From Phenylobacterium kunshanense (lineage in GTDB: Bacteria; Pseudomonadota; Alphaproteobacteria; Caulobacterales; Caulobacteraceae), in NCBI RefSeq assembly GCF_003254525.1, contig NZ_QFYS01000003.1, positions 248,001-312,000 on the forward strand: a stretch of 64,000 bases of DNA. The letters are read 5' to 3'. How positions within the stretch are numbered: the first letter of the stretch is position 1; each line of letters begins with the position of its first letter. Both the position numbers and the translations under genes were made by a program. The notes below the pieces were generated by a model. The model saw nothing but the letters and a program-made list of their open reading frames with translations, was not told where the DNA came from and searched no databases. Positions 6,264 to 7,930 of this stretch are shown here, one piece after another.

Positions 6264-7469
6264 ATGAACCTCGACTTCACCCCCGAAGAAAACGCCTTCC
6301 GCGAAGAGGTCCGGGCCTTCATCCGCGACAACTATCCGGCCGAGCTGCGCAAGGCGCAGGACGAGGGTCGCCCGCTGACCAAGACCGAGTACCTGCTGTG
6401 GCACAAGGTGCTGGCGAAGAAGGGCTGGGTGGCGCCGGGCTGGCCGAAGGAGCTGGGCGGCACGGGCTGGACCCCCACCCAGAAGTACATCTGGTCGGAA
6501 GAGACCGCGAAGGCCGACTGCCTGCCGACCCTGCCGTTCGGCCTGTCGATGCTGGCGCCGGTGCTCTACACGTTCGGCACCGACGAGCAGAAGCAGAAGT
6601 TCCTGCCGGGCATCTACAACGGCGACGTCTGGTGGTGCCAGGGCTACTCCGAGCCGGGAGCCGGCTCCGACCTCGCCAGCCTGAAGACCCGCGCCGAGCG
6701 CGTGAAGGGCGACGACGGCAAGGAATACTACATCGTCAACGGCCAGAAGACGTGGACGACCCTCGGCCAGCATGCCGACTGGGGCTTCTTCCTGGTCCGC
6801 ACCGACCCTGACGCCAAGCCGCAGTCGGGCATCTCGTTCCTGCTGATCGACATGAAGACGCCGGGCATCACCGTGCGCCCGATCATCACCCTGGAAGGCG
6901 GCCACGAGGTCAACGACGTCTTCCTCGACAATGTGAAGGTGCCGGTCGAGAACCGCATCTTCCACGAGAACCAGGGCTGGACCTGCGCCAAGGCGCTGCT
7001 CGCCCACGAGCGGACCGGGATCGCTGGCGTCGCCCGCTCGAAGCGCAACCTGGAAAAGCTGCGGACCATCGCGAACACCGAGCGCTCGGACACCGGCTCG
7101 GCCTTGCTGGCCGACGCCTTCTTCCGCCGCAAGGTGGCCGAGCTGGAAATCGACCTGACCGCGCTGGAGTTCACCGAGCTGCGCACCCTGGCCGGCGAGT
7201 CGAGCGGCAAGGGCCCTGGCCCGGAAAGCTCGATCCTGAAGATCAAGGGCACCGAGATCCAGCAGCGCCTGCAGGAGCTGGCGCTGGAGGCGGTGGGCCA
7301 TTACGGCGCCCCGTTCCTGCGCGACATCGCCGCCTCGAACGAGACCGTCGGCCCCGACTACGCCGACGGTTCGGCGGGCGAGATGTTCAACGGCCGCAAG
7401 ACGTCGATCTACGGCGGCTCGAACGAGATCCAGCGCAACATCATCTCGAAGATGGTGCTGGGCCTCTGA
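6264..7469 (+). CDS. acyl-CoA dehydrogenase, large subunit (PimC-like)
   Basis: A 401-aa flavoprotein that introduces the alpha-beta double bond in acyl-CoA substrates and passes electrons to ETF. It carries the acyl-CoA dehydrogenase signatures WWCQGYSEPGAGSDLASLKT (FAD/substrate contact region) and a C-terminal YGGSNEIQRNI block. The sequence has the style of the PimC (pimeloyl-CoA dehydrogenase large) group, whose partner PimD is a separate small subunit; a matching PimD-like gene lies at 7937, interrupted here by a DUF559 cassette. The natural chain length is not readable from sequence. The palindromic operator at 6170 probably controls it. Confidence 0.9.
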   Translation: MNLDFTPEENAFREEVRAFIRDNYPAELRKAQDEGRPLTKTEYLLWHKVLAKKGWVAPGWPKELGGTGWTPTQKYIWSEETAKADCLPTLPFGLSMLAPVLYTFGTDEQKQKFLPGIYNGDVWWCQGYSEPGAGSDLASLKTRAERVKGDDGKEYYIVNGQKTWTTLGQHADWGFFLVRTDPDAKPQSGISFLLIDMKTPGITVRPIITLEGGHEVNDVFLDNVKVPVENRIFHENQGWTCAKALLAHERTGIAGVARSKRNLEKLRTIANTERSDTGSALLADAFFRRKVAELEIDLTALEFTELRTLAGESSGKGPGPESSILKIKGTEIQQRLQELALEAVGHYGAPFLRDIAASNETVGPDYADGSAGEMFNGRKTSIYGGSNEIQRNIISKMVLGL

Positions 7470-7484
7470 TCGCAATAGCTGAGG

Positions 7485-7526
7485 GCTCCCCTCCCCCTTG
7501 CGGGGAGGGGCCGGGGGTGGGGGTGT
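7485..7526 (+). repeat. left inverted-repeat arm of the DUF559 cassette
   Basis: G/C-tract repeat matching the reverse complement of 7878-7919 at 41 of 42 positions. Internally CCCCTCCCC and GGGGAGGGG form a 9-bp hairpin with a 5-nt loop. From general knowledge, repeats of this look are dispersed in many alphaproteobacterial genomes. Confidence 0.88.
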
Positions 7527-7930
7527 TGGAGCGAGCGCCTGGAGCAATCCACAAGTCGGACCGCGCTGATCGCGCGGCGCGACGCATGCGGCGCGTCCCC
7601 ACCTACGCCGAGCGCGATCTCTGGAAGGTCCTCCGCAAGACCGACCTCCATTTTCGCCGCCAGGTCCCCTTGGGCTCATACATCGTCGACTTCGCCTGCC
7701 ATGACGCTCGACTGATCGTCGAACTCGATGGCGGCATCCACGACCTTCCATCCGTGGCTGCCCGCGACCTTGACCGTGAGGCATGGCTGACAGGCCGCGG
7801 ATACAGGGTTATGCGGTTCAGCAACAACGAGCATCCCGAAGACGTCGTGCGGGTGATCCTGGAACGGATCAGCGCCGACACCCCCACCCCCGACCCCTCC
7901 CCGCAAGGGGGAGGGGAGCAGAAGGAGTAG
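7517..7930 (+). CDS. DUF559 domain endonuclease-like protein
   Basis: DUF559 proteins share the PD-(D/E)XK-like fold of very-short-patch repair endonucleases. Here the core is FRRQVPLGSYIVDFACHDA followed by the ELDG active-site block, with Asp and Glu positions intact, then GYRVMRFSNN. The longest frame is 137 aa from GTG 7517, which lies inside the left repeat; TTG 7526 or ATG 7586 are alternatives, and the conserved RRMRRVPTYAERDLW block means the start must be near or before 7586. The C-terminal tail TPTPDPSPQGGG is encoded by the right repeat arm and is probably not functional. Its stop overlaps the ribosome site of the downstream dehydrogenase gene. Confidence 0.82.
   Translation: MGVLERAPGAIHKSDRADRAARRMRRVPTYAERDLWKVLRKTDLHFRRQVPLGSYIVDFACHDARLIVELDGGIHDLPSVAARDLDREAWLTGRGYRVMRFSNNEHPEDVVRVILERISADTPTPDPSPQGGGEQKE
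7878..7919 (+). repeat. right inverted-repeat arm of the DUF559 cassette
   Basis: Reverse complement of 7485-7526 with one mismatch. It is read through by the DUF559 frame as a PTPDPSPQGGG-type tail and abuts the Shine-Dalgarno AGAAGGAG (7920-7927) of the next gene. It contains the same 9-bp internal hairpin. Confidence 0.88.

Follow-up and report, generated by a model that had tools for sequence, protein, structure and literature searches.

A DUF559 nuclease gene bracketed by inverted hairpin repeats, a probable member of a REPIN/RAYT-like system

A 435-bp unit lying between two acyl-CoA dehydrogenase genes of Phenylobacterium kunshanense is probably a nuclease-bearing member of a REPIN/RAYT-like system, the putative partner of the repeats being a DUF559 nuclease. 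In the genomes surveyed, DUF559 genes were associated with flanking repeats that were gene-specific and uniform in polarity, gene-less repeats were dispersed as doublets and co-occurred with the gene, whole units were duplicated, and the gene had conserved catalytic residues and was under selection. We infer that the DUF559 protein binds and cuts the repeats and catalyzes their spread, with repair-based copying as the route. REP-like palindromes rank with the most frequent repeats in bacterial genomes, and the widely distributed DUF559 carries the label “domain of unknown function”; their association provides a candidate enzyme for the repeats and a candidate function for the domain. No link between DUF559 and such repeats was found in the open-access literature searched.

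Structure of the unit at pimC-pimD

The window (the whole stretch of DNA analyzed, 64,000 nucleotides) contained the following features at this locus:

6264..7469, + strand: upstream host gene, acyl-CoA dehydrogenase (PimC-like), with Pfam Acyl-CoA_dh domains
7485..7919, + strand: whole unit, repeat-DUF559-inverted repeat, 435 bp
7485..7525, + strand: left (upstream) repeat, with hairpin CCCCTCCCCCTTGCGGGGAGGGG at 7488-7510 outermost and a G-rich tail at 7511-7525 towards the gene
7517..7930, + strand: DUF559 (PF04480) nuclease gene, 137 aa, listed start GTG 7517
7879..7919, - strand: right (downstream) repeat, with the tail at 7879-7893 inner and hairpin CCCCTCCCCGCAAGGGGGAGGGG at 7894-7916 outer
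7920-7927: ribosome site AGAAGGAG of the PimD-like gene, within the final DUF559 codons
7937..9079, + strand: downstream host gene, acyl-CoA dehydrogenase (PimD-like), with Pfam Acyl-CoA_dh domains

The inverted arms of the unit (7485-7532 and 7872-7919) were 48 nt long, 94% complementary, and spaced 339 nt apart, and each comprised an outer hairpin with a 9-bp stem and an inner G-rich tail, CCGGGGGTGGGGGTG. A 32-nt core of the repeat had two matches in the window compared with none in 100 shuffles. These arms, together with a match to the PF04480 profile of 109 bits against a cut-off of 20.6 (E=1e-31), bore out the initial annotation of a DUF559 gene between near-perfect inverted repeats. The exact fit into the intergenic gap that it had also described held only in part: the unit sits between both dehydrogenase genes, but the DUF559 start codon falls within the left repeat, and the final DUF559 codons cross the right repeat (TPTPDPSPQGGGE), with the ORF ending at 7930 within the ribosome site of the downstream gene. 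Alignment to the starts at loci L119 and L136 made GTG 7523, rather than GTG 7517, the more likely start of the gene. The scattered repeats mentioned in the annotation were present in relatives, with up to 35 copies of the window type, but a search of the unit's own genome (G000, ≤3 mismatches) found no copies beyond the two arms.

No domain besides DUF559 was found in the 137-aa protein, the predicted structure of which (pLDDT 84.8) ends with the catalytic domain. The model matched NGO0050 (3hrl), the catalytic domain of I-Bth0305I (3r3p), and Vsr (1cw0), with 3r3p being the second-best solved fold (E=5e-5, TMt 0.72); the fold is predicted to be Vsr-like PD-(D/E)XK, close to the EDxHD homing endonucleases. 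Residues E32, D58, E69, D71, H75, and D84 were invariant in 20 diverse relatives. The sole characterized DUF559 protein, Caulobacter VsrA, causes an SOS response in cells without ScmA methylation and has been interpreted as a mismatch-repair nuclease (PMC12907096); this VsrA-dependent response is consistent with DUF559 being an active nuclease.

An old insertion with repeated losses

In the pimC-pimD gap of 30 relatives, the unit was present in nine, counting the window genome. One copy had an internal deletion (L127), one locus retained a remnant made up of the gene end and the right repeat (L139), and several relatives had short, clean gaps of 38 to 61 bp, so that the empty sites expected for an inserted element were found in close relatives. 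The DUF559 proteins at this site formed one clade (support 82/56; 80% of bootstrap trees) with a median dN/dS of 0.21 among the orthologues, implying that the window copy goes back to a single old insertion that has since passed down vertically, evolved under purifying selection, and been lost several times. The unit has apparently been functionally kept while no longer spreading in its own strain. A recent insertion at pimC-pimD was rejected on the basis of the single clade, the dN/dS value, the deleted copy, and the remnant. The right repeat had 31 of 36 columns invariant in nine orthologues despite a divergence of about 50% at their synonymous sites, which suggests that the DNA itself is constrained.

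Several further arrangements were seen around this locus and its gene family. A solo window-type repeat (G088:C1:2610220-2610255), probably the remnant of a lost unit, was located directly upstream of the PimD gene of its genome, and a gap at L130 without DUF559 contained an inverted pair of another repeat (CATCCCGGCGAATGCCGGGACCCAGAT). No flanking repeat pair was present in the clade sister to the pimC-pimD proteins (L091, L102, L104, and L110), the members of which are possibly domesticated; despite this, scattered copies of the repeat were present in at least G020 and G088.

Association of DUF559 genes with gene-specific repeats

In the genus, the same 13-kb stretches supplied the 60 DUF559 genes examined and the 283 control ORFs, and a flank match was defined as an alignment score of ≥20 between the two 250-bp flanks. 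Among the DUF559 genes, which were the best-scoring matches on longer contigs and not a strictly random sample, 48 (80%) had matching repeats in either orientation (73% inverted), compared with 1 of the 283 controls; about 20% had no flanking repeat pair. When flanks were swapped between different DUF559 genes, only 5% matched, indicating that each gene owns its repeat variant. The polarity was uniform: each of the 39 inverted pairs that could be classified had the hairpin outer and the tail towards the gene.

The initial annotation had proposed flank enrichment of DUF559 genes in the clade as a test; the association held there and recurred outside the clade. Matching repeats were found for 22 of 30 DUF559 genes in a class sample with one genome per family and for 15 of 28 in a phylum sample, compared with 3 of 114 controls for both samples. 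In named records from other groups, including cyanobacteria, Chitinophagaceae, Anaerolineae, Margulisbacteria, and Armatimonadetes, 20 of 34 DUF559 genes had repeats (controls, 1 of 66), a count that may lean slightly towards repeats because one of the six search peptides was repeat-encoded. The repeat sequences differed greatly from group to group and often carried a second hairpin between the first hairpin and the tail. Protein and repeat distances were correlated (Mantel rho 0.24, p=0.0008, n=26), with no protein pair exceeding 65% identity; this and the other p-value below are optimistic, given the kinship among the genomes and genes counted.

Individual genomes contained up to 11 DUF559 genes at scattered positions. 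At Azospirillum plasmid loci, a repeat pair was upstream of DUF559, with mostly none downstream, so that these loci provided no clear example. In Sinorhizobium meliloti Ak57 (L281), nearly identical doublets flanked the gene on both sides (inverted score, 102), and the doublet occurred at at least 22 further places in the same replicon.

Dispersed doublets and their co-occurrence with DUF559

Across 100 genomes of the genus, two repeat types derived from the flanks of DUF559 genes reached maxima of 97 and 101 copies per genome, respectively; reversed-pattern controls gave no matches for one type and few for the other. The dispersed cognate repeats were mostly inverted doublets with ends about 60 to 100 bp apart. 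All 53 close pairs of these two types in four genomes were tail-inward, the geometry of the gene-bearing unit. The spacing in these pairs was mostly about 90 bp; some pairs were spaced at 190 to 216 bp and enclosed a CGTC-like dimer, and two, spaced at 426 to 433 bp, enclosed DUF559. The window type had 31 copies in G032, 35 in G033, and 13 in G060; its close pairs were tail-inward doublets in 26 of 26 cases, and its reversed-pattern control gave 0.

Repeats were present in 49 of the 61 genomes with DUF559 and in 9 of the 39 without it, and repeat copy number was correlated with DUF559 number over the 100 genomes (rho 0.62). Of the 12 genomes in which the pimC-pimD gap holds a DUF559 gene, at least 10 had further copies of the window type, compared with 8 of 88 others (p=1e-7), a conservative count, since copies at the locus itself were excluded. 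Four genomes (G036, G057, G079, and G084) contained 15 to 61 repeat copies and no detected DUF559 gene, as if the repeats had outlived their partner or the gene had been missed.

Signs of mobility

Whole units were found at two unrelated sites in each of two genomes, 88.3% alike over 506 bp in G094 and 93.8% alike over 595 bp in G081, and in both cases the similarity stopped at the outer hairpins. When the flanks of G050 doublets were joined, they matched relatives without a break (e.g., G001:C96, 424 bp at 80%), so these sites are empty in the relatives. A doublet carried by S. meliloti 1021 was missing from the corresponding site of strains K101 and LMB1, the junction being remodelled. Exact empty junctions could not be read in Phenylobacterium, whose relatives had 75 to 80% identity, or in Sinorhizobium, whose sites were too remodelled; the genus comparison used one genome per species, in which fresh insertions are unreadable. 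No target-site duplication was found at 20 doublets, with direct repeats at the ends averaging 1.7 bp compared with 1.62 ± 0.21 bp in shuffles.

Y1 (RAYT) transposases were rejected as the movers of these repeats. Y1 genes were present in only 20 of the 100 genus genomes, and none (PF01797) was found in the window genome. Of the 36 genomes with abundant DUF559-type repeats, 25 lacked Y1 genes, and Y1 presence was weakly correlated with the repeats (rho 0.30). Most Y1/RAYT-like genes of the genus (L331, L333 to L336, L338 to L344, and L351) had inverted GGTGACAC-type ends, unlike the DUF559 repeats; these ends were detected by the same flank method and served as its positive control.

Relation to known systems

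The initial annotation had compared the unit with RAYT/REP systems, and the likeness extended to every structural feature tested and stopped at the enzyme family and the GTAG tag. In REPtrons, as here, the gene lies inside inverted palindromic repeats, doublets are inverted and about 60 to 110 bp apart, the repeat class is gene-specific, and singlets and genomes without the partner are known (PMC3116915, PMC3733652). The RAYT enzyme, however, is an HUH tyrosine transposase, whereas DUF559 is a predicted PD-(D/E)XK nuclease; the GTAG tag at the hairpin base of REPs had no consistent counterpart here, with GGTAGG present in some other DUF559 repeats; and the second hairpin before the tail distinguishes many DUF559 repeats. 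The EDxHD homing endonucleases (I-Bth0305I, 3r3p; PMC3943268) share the predicted catalytic fold, the acidic/His active-site pattern, and a mobile gene unit, but they have an extended DNA-binding region that is absent from the 137-aa DUF559 protein, and the DUF559 unit is outside any intron or intein and is bracketed by hairpin repeats that also occur alone. Vsr and the “Vsr-like” DUF559 proteins (1cw0; NGO0050, 3hrl; Caulobacter VsrA) have the same fold and family; Vsr has an FxH half-motif in place of the ExD of the window protein, and the repeat bracket is particular to the present unit. No methyltransferase gene was seen beside the window DUF559 gene.

CGTC-tagged REPs are also alphaproteobacterial palindromic doublets without a RAYT, and according to Di Nocera and colleagues they have no dedicated transposase (PMC3733652). 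They are set apart from the DUF559 repeats, by the description in that survey, by their CGTC tag, an 8- to 9-bp stem starting with AT, their loop, and a CCA tail. A partnership of DUF559 with CGTC-REPs proper was unsupported, the CGTC-like dimers being nested in DUF559 units rather than beside them. At seven G050 loci (L205, L208, L211, L215, L220, L224, and L227), dimers of the CATCCCGG...GGGACCCA type were nested mid-doublet at a near-constant position, as if the center of the DUF559-type doublet were their preferred target. The Sinorhizobium doublets presumably resemble the RIME-like mosaic repeats in being hairpin-tail units; many S. meliloti plasmid doublets differ in being old and common to strains.

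Proposed mechanism and alternative explanations

In the proposed mechanism, the nuclease would recognize its own folded hairpin and tail, either as a single strand or as an extruded cruciform, and would cut at the repeat or at the target, after which host repair would fill the break with a copy of the doublet or of the entire unit. A gene-less pair of ends about 60 to 100 bp apart would be the non-autonomous form that multiplies in the genome. Since a lone nuclease of such a fold is unable to join strands, host functions are assumed, and repair copying, as in homing, would be likelier than cut-and-paste; it would also account for spread without target-site duplication. Evidence against a DUF559-driven system consisted of the four repeat-rich genomes without detected DUF559, the roughly one-fifth of DUF559 genes without a repeat pair, sister clade included, and the reading of VsrA as a mismatch-repair nuclease (PMC12907096).

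That reading leads to an alternative in which DUF559 is a host Vsr-type repair nuclease and the repeats, with no role in mobility, either prefer its neighborhood or serve as processed autoregulatory hairpins or terminators. The VsrA-mediated SOS response on loss of ScmA methylation (PMC12907096) and the purifying selection on DUF559 agree with such a role, and conservation of the flanking repeat at the nucleotide level would also suit autoregulation. We consider it unlikely, however, given that the repeats match their particular DUF559 gene (5% after swapping), that duplicated whole units have the hairpins as their borders, and that dispersed copy number follows DUF559, which itself occurs at up to 11 scattered places per genome. 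It is rather improbable, too, that DUF559 is cargo trapped between non-autonomous ends that are moved by RAYT/Y1 or another enzyme: the repeat-rich genomes without DUF559 and the weak Y1 correlation (rho 0.30) fit this explanation, but 25 of the 36 repeat-rich genomes had no Y1 gene, Y1 genes have GGTGACAC-type ends of their own, and DUF559 recurs in the bracket across phyla, with protein and repeat co-diverging.

Homing in the strict sense, in which the nuclease cuts an empty allele, allelic repair copies the gene in, the hairpins are mere ends, and the doublets are unrelated debris, would be consistent with the rank of the EDxHD homing endonuclease I-Bth0305I as second-best solved fold, with the site-conserved copy at pimC-pimD, and with the lack of target-site duplication; it is made very unlikely by the ends and polarity that doublets share with the gene-bearing unit and by whole units at unrelated sites within one genome. 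The repeats are low-complexity C/G runs, which would favor a chance or composition artefact of GC-rich DNA, but this explanation has almost no probability left and was rejected by control ORFs (1/283 and 3/114), by shifting the intervals, by swapping the flanks, and by reversing the patterns (0 or few); moreover, the pattern was also found among cyanobacteria and Chitinophagaceae, where the sequences differ.

Wider implications

An entire superfamily of REP-like palindromes is without a known partner enzyme according to one survey, and the question of the missing transposase of CGTC-REPs is a gap of the same kind, the DUF559 repeats differing from those families as described (PMC3733652). On the nuclease-centered reading, a process akin to transposition may proceed with no transposase to join strands, and Caulobacter VsrA, the DUF559 protein linked to DNA damage, could be interpreted in another way. 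The broadest form of the proposal stands at about even chances: DUF559 would be a second, phylum-spanning class of REP-mobilizing enzyme, unrelated to RAYTs, that spreads doublets and genes by hairpin-directed cleavage and repair copying, and it would explain many of the orphan palindromes of the CCTCTCCC type found in, among others, alphaproteobacteria, cyanobacteria, and Bacteroidota.

In a separate observation, several mitoribosome proteins of Toxoplasma had folds matching the structural model of the window protein (m539ea1339f1a), suggesting that Vsr-like folds may have been recruited into that mitoribosome.
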